A stretch of DNA of 35,672 bases. It comes from Bacteroidota bacterium (lineage in GTDB: Bacteria; Bacteroidota; Bacteroidia; Palsa-965). The translations under genes were made by a program, and so were the position numbers. This document shows, one piece after another, positions 5,332 to 34,478 of this stretch. Every line of letters begins with the position of its first letter. The stretch's first letter is position 1. The stretch lies in the NCBI GenBank assembly GCA_003153435.1, contig PLYR01000116.1, forward strand, positions 1-35,672, in the 5' to 3' direction. The notes below the pieces were generated by a model. The model was not told the origin of the DNA and searched no databases. It saw only the letters and a program-made list of their open reading frames with translations.

Positions 5332-5392
5332 CTTTACAAAACTTGACAGTTTTAGTTGTAAACCTTACACTTTTCATGTGTAAGCCTTACGC
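5332..5392 (+). repeat. TTTACA motif site 4 plus two inverted-repeat units at the integrase end
   Basis: Positions 5332-5353 hold CTTTACAAAA, C, TTGACAGTTTT on the plus strand. They are followed by two related, partly palindromic units 22 bp apart: TGTAAACCTTACAC (5357-5370) and TGTAAGCCTTACGC (5379-5392). The second contains the stop codon of the integrase at 5387. This is the only one of the seven motif sites that touches a recombinase gene, so it is the best candidate for that enzyme's own recombination site. Confidence 0.6.
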
Positions 5393-6628
5393 CACTTTCA
5401 AGTGAGCACCATTCTCCTGCCAGTGTTTTTCCAGCAGAACGGCAGCTTGTTCGTTGGTTGTTCGGATATATTTAAGGAATGCTTTTTCAGTCCTGTGGCC
5501 TGTTATGCGCATCACGGTCAATGATCCAAATCCGGAAAGGACCAAATTCGTGGCAAAAGACCTACGTGCTGTGTGGGTTGTAATGCGTTCATACTTCTTG
5601 TAAGTCGTCTCCTCTTTGCCGGAAGCTTTCATCCGGGTAACGGTTACAGTATCAGTTAAACCGGTTAGAAGTCCTATATCTTTTAAACATCTGTTAAGCT
5701 CCTGATTGGTTGTGGTCGGAAGCACACCTTCGTACTTGTGCATTATTTGGACCACATTGGGATGTATAGGAATAGTTACCTTCTGACCACCTTTCTCTGT
5801 GGTGATCTTGAAGAAGTTGCCTTCGACATTGCTCATCTTGATCTGATTAAAATCACTAAATCTGAGGCCAGTATACGCTCCAACGTAGAATAAGTCCCTC
5901 AGTCGTTCTAGCCGTGGTCTGCTGGACAAATCAAGGTCCAGCATCTTTTGAAGCTCCTTTTCAGTAAGGTAGATGGTATCTGCTGTTTCCTCAAGAGCGA
6001 CAAAGCCACGGGATTTGAATTCATGATTAGAATGATACCTACGTTCCAGAGCAACATTCATCACAGCCTTAATTACTCGGATGTTCTTCCCGAAAGCATT
6101 TCGGGTAAGATTCAGGTCCACCATCTGGAAGCGTTTGAAGCCTGTATAGAAGGTCATATCTATGCTGTCCCAATTGAGACTTACTTTCCTTTTCTTCTGG
6201 TAATTCTGAAGGTGATGCAGGGTTGTCACATAGGTTTTAACCGTTGCCGGTTTCTTTTCAGCCTTTGATTCCTCAATGAATTGGAGGAAGAAAGGCATAA
6301 AATCAGGAATGTCACTTGCCTTTGCTCCGGCGGTGAATTTCTCCCGGACATAAGCAGCTGATGGTTCAATGTTCCGGAACTTAGCCTCCCTAGCTATGTT
6401 ATCGATCCGCTCTTTTACAGACTTCAGGTATGAGTTCAAAGCCGAGAACCCTCTATGTGACTTACGGACCTCCTCACGGGTCTGATCCCAAGATTTAACA
6501 GGGACTTTCTCTCCAGTTGATAAGACAGTCTGCTTTCTTTGGTGGCAGTACCGTACAAATATTAGGCTTTCACCATCCTTTGTTGTACAGCCCGGATTAC
6601 TGCGAAGAATCAATTTTGTTGTGCTCAT
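5387..6628 (-). CDS. Tyrosine recombinase (site-specific integrase)
   Basis: About 413 residues from the likely start MSTTKL. An upstream methionine at 6661 would add 11 residues that fit the family less well. The N-terminal arm-binding domain (LILRSNPGCTTKDGESLIFV) and the central SAM-like domain (around residues 100-200) are typical of Bacteroidota integrases. The catalytic domain shows all key residues: Arg in GAYTGLRFSDF, His and Arg in THTARRSFATN, His in TGHRT and the nucleophile Tyr in FLKYIR. It would cut and rejoin DNA at attachment sites. An HTH gene lies upstream on the same strand, a usual int/xis-type pairing. It sits in the middle of region A rather than at an end, so it may belong to a nested or older element. 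Confidence 0.93.
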   Translation of the reverse strand: MSTTKLILRSNPGCTTKDGESLIFVRYCHQRKQTVLSTGEKVPVKSWDQTREEVRKSHRGFSALNSYLKSVKERIDNIAREAKFRNIEPSAAYVREKFTAGAKASDIPDFMPFFLQFIEESKAEKKPATVKTYVTTLHHLQNYQKKRKVSLNWDSIDMTFYTGFKRFQMVDLNLTRNAFGKNIRVIKAVMNVALERRYHSNHEFKSRGFVALEETADTIYLTEKELQKMLDLDLSSRPRLERLRDLFYVGAYTGLRFSDFNQIKMSNVEGNFFKITTEKGGQKVTIPIHPNVVQIMHKYEGVLPTTTNQELNRCLKDIGLLTGLTDTVTVTRMKASGKEETTYKKYERITTHTARRSFATNLVLSGFGSLTVMRITGHRTEKAFLKYIRTTNEQAAVLLEKHWQENGAHLKVA

Positions 6629-6697
6629 GGTATAGAGATATTTTAAGGGAACATTCACCAATTATTAGACTTGAGGCAAATGCTTCCTTGAATGGTC

Positions 6698-6973
6698 TTA
6701 CTTCTTGAATGTGGTCATGAATGACAGGACTTCCCTTCGTTTATACCTGATGGTCGTTCCTTCCAGCCAATAATGGGGAAGGCCACGGGACCTCAGTTTT
6801 ATAAGATAACTCTGGCTGATTTTCAGCAGGGTGAGTACTTCTTCAGAAGTCAGGATTTCATCGGTATCCGATTCGTGTTTTTCCTGAATAAGGGATTGGA
6901 GTTCTGTTCGGACTGCTTCTTTTACGAGGTTTAGGAGTTCTTCATTTCTGATTAGGATGATGTCGTTGGTCAT
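6698..6973 (-). CDS. Excisionase-type helix-turn-helix protein
   Basis: About 91 residues from MTNDIILI. An ORF start at 7030 would add a tail of 19 residues unlike the family. The C-terminal half (LTSEEVLTLLKISQSYLIKL, then GLPHYWLEGTTIRYKRREVL) is a winged HTH of the HTH_17/MerR-like type that accompanies Bacteroidota integrases and acts as an excisionase or directionality factor. The N-terminal half is a helix likely to dimerise. It lies 69 bp upstream of the integrase start on the same strand, so the two are probably one unit. Confidence 0.85.
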   Translation of the reverse strand: MTNDIILIRNEELLNLVKEAVRTELQSLIQEKHESDTDEILTSEEVLTLLKISQSYLIKLRSRGLPHYWLEGTTIRYKRREVLSFMTTFKK

Positions 6974-7197
6974 TAATAGAGGTGTATTGGTGTTTAACGA
7001 AACATAGGGAATCAGAAGTAGGACAGCCAACTGTTTTTTGAAATCTGCAGAATTTCAGGAGGGATCCGCATAGTTTAAGTTTGAGTTGGGTAGGATTTAA
7101 AGTATATGTAGGGCTGGTTCGTAATGTTTTTCAGCAAGCGATATTCCCACCGTTTTGCCTATCTTTAAATACGGAGCTGGCATTATAACGAACTATT

Positions 7198-8946
7198 ATG
7201 AAAGTACTTCTTTTGGAATTTGCTGTGGCTTTTCCCGGTGAGCAACCGAGAAGGCCTGAGGAATATTTAATGGGTGGAAACCGCGACCTTGTATTAAATG
7301 CAGCATCTTTCTTTCTAGGCTTTAAGAATCGGGATTCTCGGTATGTAAATAATAGGGATTTATTAGGCATGTTTTTTAGGCAAGAAAACAGAGACTTTGC
7401 AACAGCGGTACATGAGAGAATTCGGATTCAGGAAAGGCAGGGCCGTCAGGTACAAATAATTAACCCATATACAAGCCTGAAGCTATTTGAAACATTCTTT
7501 CAAATAGTAGATAACGATGTAACACAAACTCCACAGGAATTCGAAATCAATCTATTTAAAGCATATCTGGTTCTTAATTCGAACTTTACTTCCAGGCAGA
7601 TGGCTGCGACCACATCCACTACTGAATTGGAAGAGGAGCTGAAAATTCCAATGCTTTTTTTTTGCATGAGCTATGTTGCTTCAGACGTTACTAATTATGA
7701 CCTATCTGAACTGTGGATAACACAAACAATAAAAACCATTTACCTTTTCCAGTTTCTGGAACGTGATGCCAGGACCCAGCGATTACTTGCTGCTTTCCTT
7801 ACGCATTTTGAGTGTCGCTCATGGGAGGAATACTTGAAACGGTTGCTTCCGCTTACAGCTCCTGCCATCAAGAGTGAGCGTGAAGCCCATACGGACATAA
7901 TCCTCACGGGGGATGAGCAATATGAAGCGGCGTGTACTTTCATTGAAAAGTTCATTGTCCCTATCAATGAACCCTTATTGGAAAGCGATTTTCTTTCTCT
8001 TAGATCCAAACCTTTATACAAAATCGAGGACGGCAAGTATCGCATCATTTTTAGCCTCTTTGTGCTTGAAAAGATATTTAAAGGGATGTATTTTATTCTT
8101 CGTGACATAAATACCAGTTTGCCTGCAGATGAAAAGATAACAGATCTCAAAAGTTTGTTTGGTGCTGATTTTGCAGAGAACACCCTTTGTTCAGAAGTTA
8201 TCAAAATCATTTATCCTGATAATTGCGTTCGTTATTCCGGAGAGGAATTGGCGGCGATGGGAATCCAGGGTGCCCCGGACTCCTATGTTCGCAAAGCAAA
8301 GAATATCCTTTTAATTGAGTCAAAGGATTTCCTTATCCCAGCCCCCGTAAAGGAATCTTGCGATTACTCGCAATATGAAAACGAATTTGAGAAGAAGCTG
8401 TATTTTATGGTGGATAGACGGGGGGTGGAGATGCCAAAGGCAATTATGCAGCTGATTGGAACTATTAGGAGAGTTTTAAGAAAGGAGTTTGAAGCTGATA
8501 AGCGGTATCATTATCGTGATGTGACGATTTACCCAGTGCTTCTCACCCATGAACATCAATACAATGTTGCAGGTTTTAATGAACTATTAAACTATTGGTT
8601 TCAGGCTGAGCTTGAGCTATTGCAGGAAGAGGGTTTCTATATACGTGGTGTGAGGCCATTAGTTGTGGTCAACATAGATTCGCTTATCTACCATCAAGTG
8701 GCTCTCCAAAAAGAGATTCCATTGCATGAAGTGTTAAATAAATATTTGGAACACACCCATATTGCCCCTGGAATTATGTTCCCAACTGAAGCGGAAGCAC
8801 AAAAACACGTAATGTCGAAAATGGATCCTTTCTCCATTTTTATTCATAACTACTTTACGGATCTTGGATTCAGAGAATTCCCTCCGATGCTCAATGAACT
8901 CGGACTGACGATCTTTAAAGAGGAAAGAGAAAATTCGGATCAATAA
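7198..8946 (+). CDS. Unrecognised 582-residue protein with PD-(D/E)XK-like motif
   Basis: I recognise no named family. The protein is soluble, mostly helical, with no signal peptide. Its clearest feature is Pro360-Asp361, then twelve residues ending in a hydrophobic strand (NILLI), then Glu374-Ser-Lys376-Asp. This D-(X12)-ExK pattern is that of the PD-(D/E)XK nuclease core, which cuts DNA or RNA with divalent metal. No other catalytic motif is obvious. It is the first gene of a three-gene operon: the next gene starts 8 bp after its stop, and a third, related to the second, follows. The set lies beside an integrase/HTH pair in an island, a typical place for defence modules. Defence function and nuclease activity are inference. 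The start at 7198 is the first ATG after a possible promoter box TATCTTTA near 7159. Confidence 0.85.
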   Translation: MKVLLLEFAVAFPGEQPRRPEEYLMGGNRDLVLNAASFFLGFKNRDSRYVNNRDLLGMFFRQENRDFATAVHERIRIQERQGRQVQIINPYTSLKLFETFFQIVDNDVTQTPQEFEINLFKAYLVLNSNFTSRQMAATTSTTELEEELKIPMLFFCMSYVASDVTNYDLSELWITQTIKTIYLFQFLERDARTQRLLAAFLTHFECRSWEEYLKRLLPLTAPAIKSEREAHTDIILTGDEQYEAACTFIEKFIVPINEPLLESDFLSLRSKPLYKIEDGKYRIIFSLFVLEKIFKGMYFILRDINTSLPADEKITDLKSLFGADFAENTLCSEVIKIIYPDNCVRYSGEELAAMGIQGAPDSYVRKAKNILLIESKDFLIPAPVKESCDYSQYENEFEKKLYFMVDRRGVEMPKAIMQLIGTIRRVLRKEFEADKRYHYRDVTIYPVLLTHEHQYNVAGFNELLNYWFQAELELLQEEGFYIRGVRPLVVVNIDSLIYHQVALQKEIPLHEVLNKYLEHTHIAPGIMFPTEAEAQKHVMSKMDPFSIFIHNYFTDLGFREFPPMLNELGLTIFKEERENSDQ

Positions 8947-8954
8947 TTCCACAC

Positions 8955-9656
8955 ATGACAGAAACCGGAATCACAATAAAAATTGAATATTGCACCTTAG
9001 AAGAATATCGTCCAAAAGGAATGGAGGAATTCCAGCAAGTGCTTTCTGAAAATTACATAACAGTTATTCGTGCAATGCGTGGTAGCTGTGGTGGGGGAAT
9101 GAATCATTTAGCGGTGGAACTAATCTCTCAAATTGATCTAAGTGATGTCTTAAAAATCATCCGAGATGGTGTCATCTTTGATCTAATGAAGTCTGGTAGC
9201 AGGGCATTTGTATTACAACCGTTTTTAAACGCATACAAGAAACTTTGCAAGCTTAATGCAGGAGTTAGAGCAATAGGAATTGAAGAGTTAAACATTAGTT
9301 TTAGAGACTCGAAAATTAAAATATACAATTTAGGAGAAACAGACGTTATTGACGAGCTGGAGAAGATATTCGTAGCATTGGCTGGAAATTATGAAAATAT
9401 GATTCTTCCTTCAGGAGAAAAGCCTTATGAAGTTTATATCCCTGTTTTTAGAGATATCCGTGAAGATGGAGAAATAATCTACAGGCAATTGCAAGATTAT
9501 GACGAAACCATACAAGACGTTTCAAAGGATGACTATTATAATTATTGGGGATTGGGATACGATTGGGACATATTCTCAAGAGCTTATGATTTAAAAGCGA
9601 AACAACTCCTTCAAGAGCGATTTTTCAAACCGGACTGGATGCGATACTATCGTTGA
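8955..9656 (+). CDS. Operon partner protein, paralogue 1 (unknown family)
   Basis: This 233-residue protein has no signal peptide or clear membrane span. It is closely related to the next gene over its whole length. Shared segments are a start of the form GIxIKxEYCT, then MEEF with LSENYITVIR, a GGGxNH turn followed by an ISQ segment, a DGxIFD helix, ELNI and FKDS/FRDS strands, LPSGEKPY or LPTGEKPY, and an end with DxDYYxYWG followed by YDWD. The glycine-rich GGG-N-H turn and the acidic-aromatic DDYYNYWG block are the most conserved parts and may form a binding surface. The 8-bp gap to the PD-(D/E)XK-like gene suggests translational coupling and a shared complex. I do not recognise the family. 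Confidence 0.85.
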   Translation: MTETGITIKIEYCTLEEYRPKGMEEFQQVLSENYITVIRAMRGSCGGGMNHLAVELISQIDLSDVLKIIRDGVIFDLMKSGSRAFVLQPFLNAYKKLCKLNAGVRAIGIEELNISFRDSKIKIYNLGETDVIDELEKIFVALAGNYENMILPSGEKPYEVYIPVFRDIREDGEIIYRQLQDYDETIQDVSKDDYYNYWGLGYDWDIFSRAYDLKAKQLLQERFFKPDWMRYYR

Positions 9657-9682
9657 GCTAAAAATATTTGTAACATTTATTT

Positions 9683-10399
9683 ATGAAAACAGGGATTGCA
9701 ATAAAACTAGAATATTGTACCATCGGAAAGTATATGTTGGATGGTATGGAGGAATTTGAAACCTCCCTCTCAGAAAACTATATAACGGTTATAAGGCCAA
9801 GACCAGGAGGGCTTGGAGGAGGCTTAAATCATTTTATTGTTGATTTTATCTCCCAGACGAATTTGGAGGACATATCTAAGCTTGTTCAGGATGGGATAAT
9901 CTTCGATGCTCTGAAATATAGCGGTCGCACGCTTATAATAAAACCCTTCATTGCTGCCGTAAAAAAGTTAATTGCAATAAATAAACACAAGAATGTTGTC
10001 GGTATTTCGGAATTGAATATCACTTTTAAAGATTCAATCCTTAAAATTTACAATATCCGGGAATCAACCTTACTTGATCAACTGGAAGAAATCCTCAAAA
10101 TAGTATCTACAAATTATGTTTCGTTGATCCTGCCGACTGGAGAAAAACCATATATGATTCATCTTCCTCTGTTCAATGATCTGGAATCTGGTAAACTGCC
10201 TACGTTTAGAACCCTTTTTGATTTTGATGAACCGATTCAGGATGCTTCAGATGCGGATTACTATAAGTATTGGGGGATATATTACGACTGGGATGGAAGC
10301 AGAAAGGTTTTTGAAGTTAAGGAGCGGCTTCTTCATGCTAAAACTTTCTTCTTGCAATCAGAATACTGGCAGGAAATCGACAGGAGAAATAAAGCATGA
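9683..10399 (+). CDS. Operon partner protein, paralogue 2 (unknown family)
   Basis: This 238-residue protein is the tandem paralogue of the gene at 8955, with a 26-bp gap between them. By eye roughly 40% of residues match, spread over the full length, so this is an old duplication kept as two genes rather than a recent copy. That pattern fits a heteromeric complex or two target specificities. Differences concentrate in the middle (residues 100-150) and in the last 30 residues. The next gene is convergent, ending at 10481, so the operon ends here. No stem-loop terminator is evident in the 81-bp gap. Function unknown. Confidence 0.85.
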   Translation: MKTGIAIKLEYCTIGKYMLDGMEEFETSLSENYITVIRPRPGGLGGGLNHFIVDFISQTNLEDISKLVQDGIIFDALKYSGRTLIIKPFIAAVKKLIAINKHKNVVGISELNITFKDSILKIYNIRESTLLDQLEEILKIVSTNYVSLILPTGEKPYMIHLPLFNDLESGKLPTFRTLFDFDEPIQDASDADYYKYWGIYYDWDGSRKVFEVKERLLHAKTFFLQSEYWQEIDRRNKA

Positions 10400-10480: not shown

Positions 10481-12472
10481 TTACACTCTTACTCCAATCA
10501 ATGTTACATCATCTATCTGTTCTAGATCGCCTACCCATTCTTTAAATGTTATTTCCAGCAATTCTTTTTGGTCTTGCATTGGCAAATGAGCATTTGCGGC
10601 CAACAATTCTCTTAGATTCTTGCTCATAAATTTCTTGCCTTTTTCACCCCCAAACTGGTCTGGGAAACCATCTGTTAAAGTATAAACTACATCCCCTTGT
10701 TTTAATTCAATCTCCTGTTGGGTAAAAGAAGTAGCCTGTCTATCATGCTTCCCGACTGGCATTTTATCAGGTTTTATCTCAATAGTTTCGCTTCCCCTTA
10801 TGATCCAAACGGGGTTGTTGGCTGCTGCTATAGTTAATTTGTTTGTTTTAAAGTCATAAACAGTTAAGCTGGTATCCATTCCATCTTTACCTCCTTCGAG
10901 GCTACCATCTTTCTTCAGACGTTCAATTATTATTTTTCGTGTCGTATTTAAAATTTCCGAGGGGTTAGTGTCCGTTTCAATTGCTTTCTCAAGGCTGGTA
11001 ACATTTAATAAACTCATAATTGCTCCGGGCACTCCATGCCCAGTGCTATCAGCAGTAGCCAGGGCAAAAGTTCCATTATTTAATTTGCTGGCCCAATAGA
11101 AATCGCCACTTACAATATCCTTGGGTTTAAATAGAACAAAATAATCATGTAAATTCTCATTTAGGATTTCTGTGGTGGCTATAAAACTGCGTTGGATACG
11201 TTCTGCATAATTTATGCTGTCTATAATCTCCTTTTGGTGTTCTTCTACGAGATGCTTTTGTTTTTCAATAAGATGCTTCTGCTTTTGGGTTACTTTCCAT
11301 CGATTATACATGAAACCTGCAAAAACAGCAACGATTAATAGTATTAATATGACAGAATATAGAAAAAGACGTTGGCGTTTCTTCTCCTCTAATGTTATTG
11401 CCGATTGTTTCTCCTTATCTTTTTCAAGAAGCTTTATCTGAGACTCTTTCTTTTCGCTTTCATATTTTGCAGTCATTTCTGCTGTTTTCTTTGCGCTTTC
11501 AATATTGAAAATGGAATCATTAATTTGTTTAAAGAGAATATGATAATGAAACGCTCCCTTCCAATCTCCGGATATTGAATCACAGAATGCAAGGGCTTCG
11601 TAGTCTGATTTTGCCGTCTCTTTGGCTCCAATTTCAATGGCAACCTGAAGGCTGAGTAAGAGCTGACTCTTCGCTTCAGGAATTTTGTTCTGTTTTAGTA
11701 AAATATCGCCAATATTAGCCGTGGAAGCTGCAACTCCGTTTTTATCATTCAGCTCCTCAAAAAGCACTCTTGCATTTCTATAGTTCTCTAAAGCCTTTCC
11801 ATAATTGCCTTGACTATGGTAAACACTCGCAATGCTGTTATGCGTAATCGAAATTCCAGCTTTGTCTTTAAGTTCCTTAAATATTCCTAAGGCAATGAAA
11901 TCACTTTCTAATGCCTTATTGTAGTATCCTTTCCGCATATATAGGGTTCCCATAGTTCCAGCCGCCTTGGCAATACCTGGCTTAAATCCAATATCAGTAA
12001 ATAGCTTTAATGCTGATGAGTCCATTTCCAAAGCCTTATCCAGCTTCCCTTGGTTTTTGTAAATGGTTCCAATATTCAACTGGCAAGCCGCTCTGCCTTT
12101 ATCATTCCTAATTCGTTCATAAATTTTCAAAGCAGAAAAATATTCTTCTAATGCCATGTCATAATTGGCCTGATACATATAACAAGTACCGAGGTTAGTA
12201 AGAGTGTTAGCATTTAGCTTTTCTCCTCTCATGCTCTTTCCAAATGAAATCGTTTTGGCAAGTTCAATGCAAGCTTTTCCGGCTTCTATTGCTTTCTCGT
12301 ATGCCCCTTGGTCCTCATAAGCATTGCAAAGGGAATTGAGGTGCTTAACCTTCATGCTGTCATCTTTGTCTGATTTTGCAAGTGCGGACAAAGAATCTAT
12401 TTTGTTTTGGCAAAAAGAGATAAGGGTACTGCAGAAGAGAAAGTACAAAACCAGAATGGCTCTTTTAGACAT
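10481..12472 (-). CDS. Membrane TPR protein with SpoIIE/PP2C phosphatase domain
   Basis: This 663-residue protein has a signal peptide or first membrane anchor (residues 1-22), about six or seven tetratricopeptide repeats (residues 45-290, with motifs such as ALEYYSALKIY-like helices and YGKALENYRNA), a coiled stretch, one membrane span (about residues 369-390), a second coiled coil and a C-terminal PP2C-type phosphatase of the SpoIIE class. The metal-binding motifs are present: DIVSGDFYW, ADSTGHGVPGA, TLTDGFPDQFGG and DDVTLIGV. The TPR part is predicted outside the cytoplasm, so the protein probably senses an envelope signal and dephosphorylates a cytoplasmic partner, such as an anti-sigma antagonist. 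This architecture is common in Bacteroidota. No partner kinase or antagonist gene is adjacent. Confidence 0.92.
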   Translation of the reverse strand: MSKRAILVLYFLFCSTLISFCQNKIDSLSALAKSDKDDSMKVKHLNSLCNAYEDQGAYEKAIEAGKACIELAKTISFGKSMRGEKLNANTLTNLGTCYMYQANYDMALEEYFSALKIYERIRNDKGRAACQLNIGTIYKNQGKLDKALEMDSSALKLFTDIGFKPGIAKAAGTMGTLYMRKGYYNKALESDFIALGIFKELKDKAGISITHNSIASVYHSQGNYGKALENYRNARVLFEELNDKNGVAASTANIGDILLKQNKIPEAKSQLLLSLQVAIEIGAKETAKSDYEALAFCDSISGDWKGAFHYHILFKQINDSIFNIESAKKTAEMTAKYESEKKESQIKLLEKDKEKQSAITLEEKKRQRLFLYSVILILLIVAVFAGFMYNRWKVTQKQKHLIEKQKHLVEEHQKEIIDSINYAERIQRSFIATTEILNENLHDYFVLFKPKDIVSGDFYWASKLNNGTFALATADSTGHGVPGAIMSLLNVTSLEKAIETDTNPSEILNTTRKIIIERLKKDGSLEGGKDGMDTSLTVYDFKTNKLTIAAANNPVWIIRGSETIEIKPDKMPVGKHDRQATSFTQQEIELKQGDVVYTLTDGFPDQFGGEKGKKFMSKNLRELLAANAHLPMQDQKELLEITFKEWVGDLEQIDDVTLIGVRV

Positions 12473-18186: not shown

Positions 18187-18354
18187 CTTTACAAACCTTT
18201 ACTCTTTCAGGACTCACCTTTTTAATCCAATTCTCCAAAAAAGTTAGGAATAGGCGTGGGCCGGATTCCGGAAAAAGCCCATTCCTGATTATGCCCAAAA
18301 CAGATCAAATTTCATATCCCAATTCCCGAGAAACCGGATAATCCTCCCAAAAAC
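18187..18354 (+). repeat. Long hairpin repeat R1, headed by TTTACA site 5
   Basis: The copy begins with motif site 5 (18187-18209: CTTTACAAACC then TTTACTCTTTCA). It continues with ACTCACCTTTTTAATCCAA and a conserved hairpin in which GGGC (18258-18261) pairs with GCCC (18277-18280) and AGGAAT (18246-18251) pairs with ATTCCT (18281-18286). It ends in ATAATCCTCCCAAAAAC. R2 and R3 are homologous. It fills the gap between the genes at 18082 and 18460. Confidence 0.75.
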
Positions 18355-19920: not shown

Positions 19921-20096
19921 CTTTATAAAAGTTTACACTTTATGGCTCCTCCTTAATTCCGAATTACACAAAAAAGGTAGTGAAAAGGATTGAGACGGAA
20001 TAATGTGGGCCGGATTCCAGAAAAAGCCCAATCATGAATAAGCCCAAAACAGATGAAATTTCAAATCCCAATTCCAGGGATTCCCGGAAATATTCC
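19921..20096 (+). repeat. Long hairpin repeat R2, headed by TTTACA site 6
   Basis: It starts with site 6 (19921-19943: CTTTATAAAAG then TTTACACTTTAT). It carries the shared core GTGGGCCGGATTCC near 20006, a GCCCAATCATGAATAAGCCC block and TTTCAAATCCCAATTCC. Its first 80 bases are more diverged than those of R1 and R3. It separates the genes at 19872 and 20127. Confidence 0.7.
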
Positions 20097-20776: not shown

Positions 20777-20962
20777 CTTTACGAAAGTTTACACTTTCTA
20801 TAAAATCCCATACTTTGCGGGCTCACTTTTTTAATCCAATTCTCCAAAAAAGTTAGGATTGAGAGTGGGCCGGATTCCATAAAAGCCCAATCCTCAATCA
20901 TCCCAAATCTCATCAAATTTCAGATCCCAATTCCCGGGAAACCGGATAATCCTCCCAAAAAC
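20777..20962 (+). repeat. Long hairpin repeat R3, headed by TTTACA site 7
   Basis: It starts with site 7 (20777-20799: CTTTACGAAAG then TTTACACTTTCT). Its hairpin arms are GATTGAGAGTGGGC (20857-20870) and GCCCAATCCTCAATC (20885-20899), almost fully complementary. R1 pairs AGGAAT with ATTCCT at the same place, so base changes are compensated. It ends in ATAATCCTCCCAAAAAC like R1. It lies at the right end of region A, before the TACCGAA repeats. Confidence 0.75.
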
Positions 20963-25596: not shown

Positions 25597-25601
25597 AGTT
25601 G

Positions 25602-25675
25602 TGGGCCCACTTGGGATCGAACCAAGCACCCACAGATTATGAGTCTGTTGCTCTAACCAACTGAGCTATAGGCCC
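25602..25675 (-). tRNA. tRNA with CAT anticodon (Met or lysidine-type Ile)
   Basis: A complete 74-nt cloverleaf: acceptor GGGCCTA with TGGGCCC, D arm GCTCAGTTGGTTAGAGC, anticodon arm ACAGA-CTCATAA-TCTGT, T arm CTTGG-TTCGATC-CCAAG, discriminator A, no encoded CCA. The CAT anticodon fits elongator methionine or isoleucine with lysidine, and sequence alone does not decide. The 3' part is repeated at 21114 and 291, the 5' part at 34570-34627. It is the target around which the island is built. Confidence 0.95.
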
Positions 25676-25741
25676 TTTTTTGTTTAAGGAATGCAAAAAT
25701 AGGCATTCAGGGGGATTCTCCAAAATCTGAGTGAAATTGGG
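25654..25741. repeat. 88-bp direct repeat, left copy (tRNA 5' end and promoter)
   Basis: It is identical to 34856-34943. It covers the first 22 bases of the tRNA and 66 bp upstream, including the promoter. Beyond it the two copies differ by one base and then diverge. Confidence 0.9.
25694..25724 (-). promoter_or_regulatory. tRNA promoter (Bacteroidota type)
   Basis: On the minus strand a TTTG box (25721-25724) is followed after 19 bases by TATTTTTG (25694-25701), matching the TTTG / TAnnTTTG consensus, with the tRNA start 18 bases further on. The same promoter is preserved in the right copy of the 88-bp repeat. Confidence 0.75.
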
Positions 25742-25776
25742 TTGATTCTATAAATCCAACTTTCAAGCCTTAAACC

Positions 25777-25796
25777 TGCAAATTACGTGCAAATTA
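25777..25796 (+). repeat. TGCAAATTA direct repeats, left end of region C
   Basis: TGCAAATTA occurs at 25777-25785 and 25788-25796, 11 bp apart, immediately before the integrase ATG. A matching unit lies at 34511-34519 at the other end. Probable arm sites of the integrase at 25797. Confidence 0.6.
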
Positions 25797-27053
25797 ATGG
25801 AACAGGTTTTAGCCATAAAACCAATGTTTATGGCAACTTTAAAGCTTACAATGGATTCCAGACGCTCTTATAAAGATGGCAGGTATCCCATTATTATCAG
25901 GTTAACTGAAAATCAGAAGTCAACCTCTATTTCAACCAAGATCAGGTTAAGCCTTCAGGAATGGGATAATTCCAAAGCCAGAGTAACCAAAATTCACCCT
26001 GATTATAAAAACGTGAATCTGCTTCTAAAAAAGAAGCTAATGGAGCTTGAAAAAAAGGCAATAGGGTTACCAGTTACCCCTGATGAACTCAGTCCTTCTC
26101 AGGTTAGAGAAAGCCTCTTAAATCAAAGAAAAACCACACCGTTAACCTTTCTTGAATTTGCCAACCAACAGATACAATCTTTAAAGGATCAAGAGAGGTT
26201 TGGAAATGCTTCCGTTTATCAAACAGCCTTAAACAGGCTGATGAAATATACTGGTGAGAGAGCTACTTTGAATAGCATTGATTACAAAGTGATTTCTGGT
26301 TTTGAAACTCAATTGCTCAAGGAAGGAGTTAGCCGAAATACGATAGCCAGTTATATGAGGGAGATCAGGGCTATTCTAAATTCAGCTATCAAAAACGGAC
26401 TTCTGGAAAGAGCCAACTACGCCTTTTGTAATTTCAGAATTAAAACTGAGAAAACAGTAAGCCGTGCAATCACCAAGGATGATTTAGAGAAAATCAGGTT
26501 GCATCCTCTGGTTCCAGAAAATAAGCTTTGGCACAGTAGGAATATCTTCTTTTTAATCTTTAATCTAATAGGGATTTCCTTTATTGACCTTGCTTTACTC
26601 ACAGGTGATAGCATTCAGAATGGGAGAATAGTTTACCGTAGGAGGAAGACAGGGAAAATCTACAGTATAAAGATTTCGCCGGAAGCTGAAAAGCTTATTA
26701 ACTTCTATAGAAATGAAAAATCAAAATACCTGATCTCTTCTTTTAACCTTGATTCAGTTTCAAAACCTGATGAAATTGAAGTTATTCACCAGAAATTGAA
26801 AGTCTGTAACAAATACTTGAAAGACTTGGGTAAACTTTTATCCCTCTCTATTCCATTGACAACTTATGTAGCCAGATACAGTTGGGCTAACATAGCTAAG
26901 GCTAGTGGCTATTCAAAAGACCTTATAGCAGAGGCTCTAGGACATGAATACGGAAATTCAATTACAGGAATATACCTTGAGAGCTATGGAGATTCAGTGA
27001 TTGATGGAGTGAATGAAAAGGTGACTGAGTTTCAAAGTGACCTACTTCAATAG
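25797..27053 (+). CDS. Tyrosine recombinase of region C
   Basis: This 418-residue integrase has an arm-binding N-terminus (LTMDSRRSYKDGRYPIIIRL), a SAM-like domain (residues about 115-210) and a catalytic domain. The family usually begins near MATLKL, so the true start may be 25824 or 25830. The ATG at 25797 directly abuts a TGCAAATTA repeat. The second Arg (YVARYSWANIAKA), the His (LGHEYGN) and the nucleophile Tyr (ITGIYLESY) are visible. The His of the H-x-x-R box is Tyr or Thr, and the first catalytic Arg, normally in a GLRFxD or RGMxFxD block, is absent: the block reads NLIGISFIDL. Many Bacteroidota integrases seem to share this LIGI form, so the enzyme may still be active. It sits at the left end of region C. 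Confidence 0.9.
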   Translation: MEQVLAIKPMFMATLKLTMDSRRSYKDGRYPIIIRLTENQKSTSISTKIRLSLQEWDNSKARVTKIHPDYKNVNLLLKKKLMELEKKAIGLPVTPDELSPSQVRESLLNQRKTTPLTFLEFANQQIQSLKDQERFGNASVYQTALNRLMKYTGERATLNSIDYKVISGFETQLLKEGVSRNTIASYMREIRAILNSAIKNGLLERANYAFCNFRIKTEKTVSRAITKDDLEKIRLHPLVPENKLWHSRNIFFLIFNLIGISFIDLALLTGDSIQNGRIVYRRRKTGKIYSIKISPEAEKLINFYRNEKSKYLISSFNLDSVSKPDEIEVIHQKLKVCNKYLKDLGKLLSLSIPLTTYVARYSWANIAKASGYSKDLIAEALGHEYGNSITGIYLESYGDSVIDGVNEKVTEFQSDLLQ

Positions 27054-30689: not shown

Positions 30690-32111
30690 ATGAGAATTAC
30701 TATTCTACTAGAGGAAGGTACTTTCTTATCAGCATTGCCAGCAATACTGCTGGGCATGACGTGTTTTGGCATAATTATGTTTCTCCTTTTTGCTCTTATC
30801 TCAAAAGCCACAGGTATTTCAATTAGATCAAAAGGGAGTATTCTTGGAGGAAAAGGTCAAATTATGACCGACCCGAACAGTTTAGATGAATTAGGAAAGG
30901 ACATAAGAAAGGTTTTCGATAAAAAATTTAAAGTGGGTGAGCGAGTTAAGAATGAATCCGGCAACATACCTTATTCAAAACTCATGGAAAAGGCTCCTGT
31001 TCCTCTGCAAATTCAGGAATCATTATTTGTACAGGACTTTCATTTCAATCACACTAAGTCAATAATAGAGAGATTTAATAGCAAAGTTGAAACACCTATT
31101 CGCTCTTATAGCAATCAAGAAGTACCAAAAATAAGAGAGCAAAGTTTTCAAGAAGATGATATTCCTCACGGAGCCAAGTTGTTTTTTTTAGCAAAAGAAT
31201 CTACAAAGATTTTAGAGGGTTACAAAAGGTTGGATGAGGCTGGGAGATTAGAAGCTACTCTTTTTTATTCTGCAATTATTTTCAAGTTCTATAACGAGAA
31301 TAGCCCAGAAGGATTTGAAAACATGACATCAGTTTATTGTGCATCTCTTTTTGCTGATGCAAAATTAGTATTTAAAGAAAACACAAGTGATGATTCGATC
31401 ACCCGTTTCTTAGAATCTAGGCTAAATTTCTATGCACAAGAAATTCAGGTTTTGAAACTTGGGTCAATAGACGACCCAATCAAAATTCCAGGAAAGGTTT
31501 ATCATGCCTTTTACATTTCACCTCTTTGCTTTGAGCCAGAGCAGAATTATGATTTTGGCGAAATCATGAAATTTACTCATGCCTTAAAAAATTCGCTGAA
31601 ATCAATTATTGAATGTATGCAACATTTTAACCTACATATTAAAATTGAACCACCCTCAAGTCAAATTTCAAGGATTAATGAAAAAAAGAATGAAGATCCA
31701 TTCAGTAAGGTCTTTGTGAATATTTCACAAGACCAACGGTATTCTATCTGTTGCCTGCTTATTTTTATAGGAGGTAGTGATGAGGAAGCAGGGAATCCAC
31801 AATTGGAATTGAAATTCATAAATAAGATCAGGAATCATTTGGAAGTTGCATCTAATGACTCCCTGAGCTTTATGGAAAAACATGGAGAAAAGATTTTTGA
31901 TATCATGATTACTAATTTGAAGAACCTCTCAGACATTCAAAAGGAACTATTACTCTTCACTTGCGGCGAACTAATAGTTTGTGATGGAAAACCAAATGAT
32001 TCAGAGCTAAAAATGCTGCTTCTTGTTTTTGAAAGATTAGGGTTTACTGAAGATAGGATTTTCTCTTCTTTAAATAAATCTCTCAACCTGATAAAAAGAT
32101 TTTTATCCTGA
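30690..32111 (+). CDS. Membrane-anchored protein with TerB-like C-terminus
   Basis: This 473-residue protein has one membrane span near the N-terminus (LPAILLGMTCFGIIMFLLFAL, residues about 10-33) with the rest likely cytoplasmic. The middle (residues about 140-330) is helical and unrecognised. Residues about 345-470 look like a helical TerB-type domain, with two acidic helix-turn segments: GGSDEEAGNPQLE and ELIVCDGKPNDSELKMLLLV. In TerB folds such acidic turns bind metal, and the domain is found in stress and phage-resistance modules. The next gene begins 8 bp downstream, so both are one unit. The start used (MRITILLEE) gives the membrane span directly. Function is inferred only at the fold level. 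Confidence 0.6.
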   Translation: MRITILLEEGTFLSALPAILLGMTCFGIIMFLLFALISKATGISIRSKGSILGGKGQIMTDPNSLDELGKDIRKVFDKKFKVGERVKNESGNIPYSKLMEKAPVPLQIQESLFVQDFHFNHTKSIIERFNSKVETPIRSYSNQEVPKIREQSFQEDDIPHGAKLFFLAKESTKILEGYKRLDEAGRLEATLFYSAIIFKFYNENSPEGFENMTSVYCASLFADAKLVFKENTSDDSITRFLESRLNFYAQEIQVLKLGSIDDPIKIPGKVYHAFYISPLCFEPEQNYDFGEIMKFTHALKNSLKSIIECMQHFNLHIKIEPPSSQISRINEKKNEDPFSKVFVNISQDQRYSICCLLIFIGGSDEEAGNPQLELKFINKIRNHLEVASNDSLSFMEKHGEKIFDIMITNLKNLSDIQKELLLFTCGELIVCDGKPNDSELKMLLLVFERLGFTEDRIFSSLNKSLNLIKRFLS

Positions 32112-32119
32112 GTAAATAA

Positions 32120-32692
32120 ATGACTTTCTATAAGCCACACACAACATTCAAACAGTTAGCTTTGGAAGCAAAGGAAGCTTCTTATGATTTAATGGAATTT
32201 TGTGATGGAGAATTTACAATAGAGGAAATAAAAATATGGCTATTCAAATACAGTGGCTTGGATGATGAAATAAATGAAATAGCAAAGCATGAAAGAAGGT
32301 ATAGGGAGGAAGAGATTTTTTTTAGCTACCCTGAGATTAAGCGTATTTATTTTCTATATAGAGGCATAAAACAATTTGAAGCAATTCACGAGCAACAGAA
32401 CATGATTGAGAAAGCAAATGGTGAAGCGGAGAATTTAAATGTTGATGCTAATAATAATGAAGACAAGAATGAGATTCTGGATTGGGTTATTAAATGGGAG
32501 TGTTTAAAGAGGCCGATTGAAATAAGTCCATGCTCTGAGGGATCAGACAATCCAGAGAAAATTATTTTTATTTTTAATGAAGCCCCCGATATTCAATTAA
32601 ATATGGCTCCTTTTGTATTCAAGCAGTACTTGAAATTCAAAAAACAGTTTAATTATTTTGAAGAAAAACTGATGCAGGAGTCATTCAACTAG
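32120..32692 (+). CDS. Hypothetical acidic protein
   Basis: This 190-residue protein is acidic and helical, without signal peptide or membrane span. It has repeated clusters of Glu/Asp such as CDGEFTIEEIKIW and EEEIFFSYPEIKRIYF. No family is recognised. It begins 8 bp after the membrane/TerB-like gene, which suggests translational coupling and a shared complex. It is the last gene before a 348-bp gap with a terminator. Confidence 0.6.
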   Translation: MTFYKPHTTFKQLALEAKEASYDLMEFCDGEFTIEEIKIWLFKYSGLDDEINEIAKHERRYREEEIFFSYPEIKRIYFLYRGIKQFEAIHEQQNMIEKANGEAENLNVDANNNEDKNEILDWVIKWECLKRPIEISPCSEGSDNPEKIIFIFNEAPDIQLNMAPFVFKQYLKFKKQFNYFEEKLMQESFN

Positions 32693-33533: not shown

Positions 33534-34478
33534 ATGGATACTTGTTTAATAACTGGAATACAAATTAATCCAATTTCACAAAACAATGGGCGAATCTGGT
33601 ATGCCATCTCTGTAAATGGGGTAAATTTAGAGATCAAATTCCCCAAGGATTTCGTTATTGATTCTGACCTAGGTAAGTATATCATTTTAAACAAACACAT
33701 TCTTGAAGGACATATTTACAATAAAAAATGGTTGAAACAAGGCCAAGAAATTTCAATCAATGCTCTAGATAAATTAACTACTGAAAGTAATTACCCTAAA
33801 ACTCCTTTTGAAAAAAGAAACCTACTATTCAAATGCTTATGTTCTTATCAAGGCTTTGAGGGCATGTCAATTCACTCTGAGGATTTTCATCCTGATTCAC
33901 TTAGGTATTTGTGGAAATCATTGTATTTTAAAACCTATGGGGAATTTGCATTTTATTTCAATGCTTTGGCAAACGAAGACCTTATAGAGATAAGCACACA
34001 TAGTAGTCCAGGCATGGCACCTCACCGTTTCAATATTACAATGAAGGGCCTGGAATATGCTATTCAATTTGAAAATGGGCCACAATCAAACAATTGTTTT
34101 GTGGCAATGTCCTTTTCTCCAGAAACAAGAGCAATGTGTGAACCTGCCATCATTAAAGCATTAAATGCCACAGGATTTACTCCAATTATTATTGATAAAG
34201 AGCATTTGGATAGTGATGTGACAATTAATGATGGAATTCTAGCAAGTATTAAAAGATCAAAGTTCACAATTGCTGATTTCACAGAAAATAGAAGGGGAGT
34301 CTATTTTGAAGCTGGTTATGCTTTAGGAAGAGGGCAAAGTGTAATTTACACTTGTAGAAAGGATTATTTGGAGAAGCTACACTTTGACATTAACCACTAT
34401 CAACATATAGTGTGGGAGACAGAAGAAGAGCTTGAGAGAAAATTAACAGATAAAATAGAAGTTTTCATTAAAAAGTAA
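33534..34478 (+). CDS. Nucleoside 2-deoxyribosyltransferase/TIR-like protein
   Basis: This 314-residue protein has an unrecognised N-terminal half (starting MDTCLITGIQINP). Its C-terminal domain (residues about 180-314) matches the nucleoside 2-deoxyribosyltransferase superfamily as found in defence genes: NNCFVAMSFSPETR, then GFTPIIIDKEHL, then an SKFTIADFTENRRGVYFEAG block with a likely catalytic Glu, and ALGRGQSVIYTCRKD followed by HFD. These domains cleave N-glycosidic bonds of nucleosides or NAD-like molecules and are close to TIR domains. An effector that depletes a nucleotide during phage infection is a reasonable inference, with the N-terminal half as sensor. It is the last gene of region C, next to its right end. 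Confidence 0.75.
   Translation: MDTCLITGIQINPISQNNGRIWYAISVNGVNLEIKFPKDFVIDSDLGKYIILNKHILEGHIYNKKWLKQGQEISINALDKLTTESNYPKTPFEKRNLLFKCLCSYQGFEGMSIHSEDFHPDSLRYLWKSLYFKTYGEFAFYFNALANEDLIEISTHSSPGMAPHRFNITMKGLEYAIQFENGPQSNNCFVAMSFSPETRAMCEPAIIKALNATGFTPIIIDKEHLDSDVTINDGILASIKRSKFTIADFTENRRGVYFEAGYALGRGQSVIYTCRKDYLEKLHFDINHYQHIVWETEEELERKLTDKIEVFIKK

Follow-up and report, generated by a model that had tools for sequence, protein, structure and literature searches.

A predicted PD-(D/E)XK nuclease of an undescribed Bacteroidota family, with an adjacent pair of paralogous genes from a separate family

Several described enzymes have the PD-(D/E)XK fold that is predicted for the protein reported here. 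They include the Nt.BspD6I and R.BspD6I subunits (PDB 6qnz, 2ewf, 2p14), which are its best structural matches, the archaeal Hjc Holliday junction resolvases, and McrC of the McrBC type IV restriction system. McrBC restricts without a methyltransferase and has a McrB-type GTPase. At the locus described here, a predicted nuclease of this fold is followed at close distance by two paralogous genes of another family, and the question addressed is whether the three genes belong together.

The window analysed, a stretch of 35,672 nucleotides from a Bacteroidota bacterium, carries on its plus strand three open reading frames, designated A, B and C. Gene A (7198..8946, 582 aa) encodes a predicted PD-(D/E)XK-fold nuclease of an unnamed Bacteroidota family, as judged from its motif, its homologues, an AlphaFold2 model and Foldseek matches. 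Gene B (8955..9656, 233 aa), a member of a rare unnamed family, follows after 8 bp, and its paralogue, gene C (9683..10399, 238 aa), after another 26 bp; both were defined by ORF and protein comparison. Given this tight spacing, the three genes probably share one transcript; a sigma-70 scan gave a promoter count that did not exceed that of shuffled sequences. To the left of A, on the minus strand, lie a tyrosine integrase gene (5387..6661) and a gene for an HTH_17 (excisionase-type) protein (6698..7030, assigned by domain match). The integrase was identified by a domain search (Arm-DNA-bind_5, SAM-like and Phage_integrase domains) and signals a mobile element beside A, and HTH_17 proteins of this kind often come paired with integrases. 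The initial annotation had described both the three tightly spaced genes and the neighbouring integrase/HTH pair, and both were confirmed, the three genes at the coordinates it gave. On the right, A-B-C is bordered by a convergent TPR/SpoIIE phosphatase gene (10481-12472, minus strand, domain match). No methyltransferase gene adjoins A within the window, and no element ends (att sites) were found via repeats or by comparison with relatives.

Elsewhere in the window, a third tyrosine recombinase-like gene was recognised by eye (25797-27053). It starts ∼120 bp from a tRNA-Met gene (25601-27053 for the whole region), and tRNA genes are typical integration sites. An intergenic repeat of ∼92 nt (GTGGGCCGGATTCC...) was present in three copies (18204-18347, 20005-20096 and 20813-20955), which were 76-83% alike over the repeat length; no further copies were found in the genome assembly. 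The protein encoded at 33534-34478 has a C-terminal stretch that weakly resembles, below cut-off, the nucleoside deoxyribosyltransferase and TIR_2 profiles. It is adjoined by two unrecognised ORFs at 30690-32692, and these genes possibly form another defence cassette.

Profile-HMM searches bore out the view of the initial annotation that the locus matched no recognised family, including the second and third proteins, for which it had known none. Nothing above cut-off was obtained for A, B or C in Pfam, NCBIfam or PHROGs, and no PADLOC-DB 2.0.0 profile was matched by any of them. The same held for 43 homologues of A, which gave no Pfam match above cut-off and, against PADLOC, a single weak match to Cmr6 (E = 0.019). 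Searches of PDB sequences with single proteins and with profiles gave no match for A or B/C, and no account of A or its homologues came up in a shallow literature search. The proteins related to A constitute an undescribed family of predicted PD-(D/E)XK nucleases that is not seen by the profile libraries used here.

The sequence of A contains P360-D361 followed, after twelve residues, by E374-S375-K376-D377, as the initial annotation had reported. The conservation of this motif was assessed in a set of 16 sequences, comprising A and homologues that were 19-53% identical to it and had been found without use of the motif. Only 12 columns were invariant in this set, and they include E327, P360, D361, Y363, R365, E374, K376 and Q418. 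On the plus strand of the window, the codons of the putative active site are located at 8176..8178 (E327, an invariant acidic residue in the helix preceding the core), 8275..8280 (P360-D361, the PD motif with the putative catalytic Asp), 8317..8325 (E374-S375-K376, the ExK motif with the putative catalytic Glu and Lys) and 8449..8451 (Q418, in the helix following the core strands). Since these residues are invariant where the mean column identity of the homologues is ∼40%, the motif is more than a chance occurrence. P360-D361, E374 and K376 are also invariant among the 43 A-family sequences, of which those from the GTDB scan were found with the ESKD stretch as seed and are therefore biased at that position; outside the seed, E327, PD, Y363, R365 and Q418 were still invariant among the scan sequences.

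The structure of A was predicted by AlphaFold2 from an alignment of the 43 window and scan sequences, and the resulting model was confident (pLDDT 89.8, pTM 0.89). It divides the protein into an almost all-helical N-terminal domain (residues 1-312; 7198..8133) and a PD-(D/E)XK core (residues 313-498; 8134..8691), which was supported by the fold matches. In the model, the core comprises a helix (317-338), three strands (344-347, 362-366 and 369-376), two helices (390-402 and 415-427), a strand (443-450), a helix (460-477) and a strand (489-492). This is an alpha-beta-beta-beta-alpha-beta fold that bears the motif: P360-D361 is positioned immediately ahead of the second strand, and E374 and K376 are at the end of the third. 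The PD-(D/E)XK core includes residues 350-380, around which the initial annotation had expected such a fold. A Foldseek search against the PDB gave no match below E = 0.001, and the top matches were nearly all PD-(D/E)XK enzymes, namely Nt.BspD6I, the R.BspD6I small subunit (probability 0.98, TM to target 0.43), Hjc, the LCMV endonuclease, HindIII and McrC. Matches in a viral structure library were to VRR-NUC, Cas4, an exonuclease and a resolvase. On the strength of the invariant residues, the confident model and the predominance of PD-(D/E)XK enzymes among the matches, we regard the predicted fold assignment as strong, in agreement with the initial annotation, and A is predicted to be an active nuclease.

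Homologues of A are patchily distributed. They were present in 13 of 394 other Bacteroidia genomes (roughly 3%), and a scan of GTDB genomes gave 51 loci, all of them in Bacteroidota; no archaeal relatives were found. A tblastn search of plasmid records gave homologues on eight Hymenobacter plasmids. Phage records contained no relative of A, and scans of viral contigs gave no match for A, B, C or the relatives of B. On the Hymenobacter plasmids, the A homologue adjoins MmeI (L004), lies beside AbiEii and DUF6088 together with tra genes (L002, L007) or beside a tyrosine recombinase (L005), and in one case (L006, 3117-10862) is next to a Piwi-domain (Argonaute-like) protein, accompanied by an integrase and, close by, a DNA methyltransferase. 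Metal-resistance genes are also among the plasmid neighbours. Chromosomal neighbours vary by locus and include HsdM, AbiEii, a subtilase, a SMEK protein, a resolvase, and a relaxase with ParB and SSB, the last three of these named by eye; nSTAND3 also occurs beside A. Many loci have ordinary neighbours, including housekeeping genes such as DHFR downstream.

At E ≤ 1e-10, the 124 neighbouring proteins from 33 A loci matched 262 PADLOC models, compared with 14 for 101 control proteins (13 regions) drawn from arbitrary positions in the A- and B-carrying genomes; as these counts refer to models, of which many are redundant for a single protein, and not to independent genes, the contrast indicates a direction and not a size. 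A 12.1-kb stretch bearing A was 99.98% identical between records of Zeaxanthinibacter and Aquimarina, which points to recent transfer between two genera, with the caveat that the Aquimarina record is an uncultured assembly. BLAST with the recombinases tested gave a match in the retrieved flanks of only 3 of the 51 A loci. The A homologue of one genome (G087; L036, 7135-8837) is split into two frames and represents a decayed copy.

The initial annotation had proposed that A, B and C form a three-gene module, possibly for defence, in which the nuclease is served by a two-subunit sensor. Its suggestion of a defence role agrees with the setting of A, which is rich in defence genes; its three-gene unit does not hold. 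Near the ∼65 homologues of A on Bacteroidota chromosomes and Hymenobacter plasmids, no B/C relative was found. This applies to the flanks of the eight plasmid loci and the class-wide A loci, and to the 51 GTDB loci, where profile and tblastn searches covered up to 8 kb around A. Relatives of B, in turn, occur without A beside them, and in the one genome that has both families (G374) they are on different contigs. Judged by linkage in other genomes, which the initial annotation had itself chosen as a test, the A-B-C operon is not a conserved unit.

Other small genes do follow A closely in other lineages. At five Aequorivita loci, a protein of 264-265 aa is encoded exactly 10 bp downstream of the A homologue (9745-10542 in L067, L068 and L069; 9745-10539 in L073 and L086), and the upstream genes differ. 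At another locus (L038), a SMEK-domain gene begins 18 bp downstream of A. That different small genes lie so close behind A at different loci suggests that A may recruit different partners. The motifs of the Aequorivita protein (FIDILGF...SDS...RGGxxxGxL...AYxLES) look, by eye, like those of a class III nucleotidyl cyclase. Neither Pfam nor the PDB confirmed this resemblance when searched, and the assignment is not claimed. A distant relative of this protein was found in L082, ∼6.7 kb upstream of the A homologue.

The proteins B and C could be aligned over 222 residues without gaps, with 48% identity (E = 6e-76), and they have the motifs GGG-[ML]-N-H and DYYxYWGxxYDWD in common; the full-length paralogy and the shared turn and C-terminal end noted in the initial annotation were thus confirmed. 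The identity between the two genes by codon position was 0.59/0.72/0.36, which indicates that both are real coding genes that diverged under protein-level selection. Neither protein has a transmembrane-like stretch, and eight members of the B family gave nothing above cut-off against Pfam. A model of B that was predicted by AlphaFold2 from the B and C sequences alone was poor (pLDDT 46.9). We also considered EACC1 (Effector Associated Constant Component 1, PF19953), a small protein whose alpha+beta layout, with a hydrophobic helix at its centre, is vaguely like that of B/C when compared by eye. EACC1 has a true transmembrane helix and adjoins a caspase gene (PMC7159879). This candidate was rejected, because the eight B-family members had no Pfam EACC1 match even at E up to 5 and because B and C have no transmembrane segment.

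Relatives of B are rare, with 5 of 394 other Bacteroidia genomes positive (6 of 395 by profile) and none found in phage or plasmid records. At five flavobacterial loci (L044, L046, L109, L110 and L111), the gene order is identical: a LytTR-like regulator, a TPR protein, a LuxR-type response regulator, the B relative and glyA, with gene names assigned by eye from sequence, as at all B-relative loci. The B relative of L110 is split into two frames. Other relatives stand by themselves, at L045 next to a cysteine desulfurase, at L047 in a contig rich in repeats and at L137 behind a methylmalonyl-CoA mutase. B and C appear as a tandem duplicate from a family that is separate from and unrelated to A, and the flavobacterial regulatory locus is the best lead on their function.

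The reading that we favour, with a probability of roughly 0.55, is that A is an autonomous PD-(D/E)XK nuclease carried as cargo, which probably restricts foreign DNA, and that B and C are of an unrelated family and here probably share its transcript. It is weakened by the missing PDB match at E < 0.001, the small number of recombinases, the many ordinary neighbours, and the 8-bp gap between A and B, which suggests co-expression of the three genes in this genome. The same two short gaps on one strand, together with the small genes trailing A in Aequorivita and in L038, speak for a cooperation of the three proteins in this lineage, in which B and C would form a heteromer that serves A as sensor, inhibitor or carrier, holding or activating it within a young, lineage-specific assembly. 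Against such a cooperation stand the ∼65 A homologues with no B/C relative nearby, the B relatives that occur without A, the separate contigs in G374 and the unrelated housekeeping genes, such as DHFR, downstream of A elsewhere, and we consider it rather doubtful; it is the 8-bp spacing that leaves room for it in this one genome, and nothing further points that way. A broader version would make A the fixed nuclease in a mix-and-match defence platform. B/C, the Aequorivita protein with its cyclase-like motifs and the SMEK protein would be partners that vary by lineage, and B/C would act here as a new kind of sensor or restraint; this we hold to be unlikely.

If A instead served the mobile elements themselves, in junction resolution, competition between elements or transfer, and not the defence of the host, its carriage on plasmids and its location next to integrases, resolvases and conjugation genes would be accounted for, as would the Hjc resolvases among its fold matches. 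However, there is no constant element type, the elements that carry A differ greatly, defence genes lie next to it, and its extra helical domain of 300 residues is unlike Hjc, which makes such a role quite unlikely. That A is catalytically dead, or its motif spurious, appears highly improbable: the PD-x12-ExK motif alone is short and no PDB sequence was matched, but A has every residue of the site, these residues do not vary among its diverse homologues, and the predicted secondary structure places them as in PD-(D/E)XK enzymes. For B and C, a possible but tentative reading, which is compatible with the favoured reading of A, is that they are associated with signalling and unconnected with defence, as an output or accessory of a flavobacterial regulatory pathway. 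The conserved gene order at the five flavobacterial loci and the negative searches for B relatives in phage and plasmid records are in line with this, whereas the flavobacterial relatives are only ∼19-26% identical to B, three relatives (L045, L047 and L137) have other contexts, and B and C in the window are without such regulators beside them.

Under the favoured reading of A as an autonomous nuclease, the protein would be a self-sufficient, metal-dependent enzyme that travels as cargo of Bacteroidota integrative elements, conjugative elements and plasmids, and its most likely role would be the restriction of invading phage or plasmid DNA. The site formed by E327, D361, E374, K376 and Q418 would bind metal and cut DNA, while the helical N-terminal half may recognise the target or form oligomers. 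As no methyltransferase or ATPase partner is constant, A probably detects a foreign feature (modified DNA, ends or replication intermediates) or becomes active in the course of infection. The tandem duplicate B/C would have landed directly behind A in this genome, where it is probably co-transcribed with it. If A restricts phages, it would be a single-gene defence that is missed by current annotation tools. Its family is unrecognised by the libraries used here, although it is present in ∼3% of the sampled Bacteroidia genomes and on plasmids beside anti-phage genes. B/C represent a second unrecognised family, for which the conserved flavobacterial locus offers a way into function.

Compared with known systems, the locus contributes two undescribed families, that of the PD-(D/E)XK protein and that of its companions, and no new kind of system is demonstrated by it. 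We considered A as part of a type II restriction-modification system and rejected this, because it has no constant cognate methyltransferase and its relatives are only occasionally near type I HsdM or MmeI. With no methyltransferase, helicase or NTPase constantly alongside, both the classical type II and the McrBC-like arrangement misfit A. McrC itself has the same fold and is a weak structural match (E ∼0.7-0.8, not significant), and no McrB-type GTPase adjoins A. The Nt.BspD6I and R.BspD6I subunits have the PD-(D/E)XK core in common with A, and the large subunit is similar to it in overall length, but the matches are limited to E ∼0.03-0.14, a whole-chain TM of only 0.16-0.20 and ∼10% identity, and A is without the type II restriction-modification context and the constant methyltransferase of these enzymes. 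The archaeal Hjc resolvases share the core with A over ∼125 residues (TM to target ∼0.36-0.40); unlike them, A is a protein of 582 aa with a helical N-terminal domain of 310 residues, and its neighbours are defence and mobile genes.
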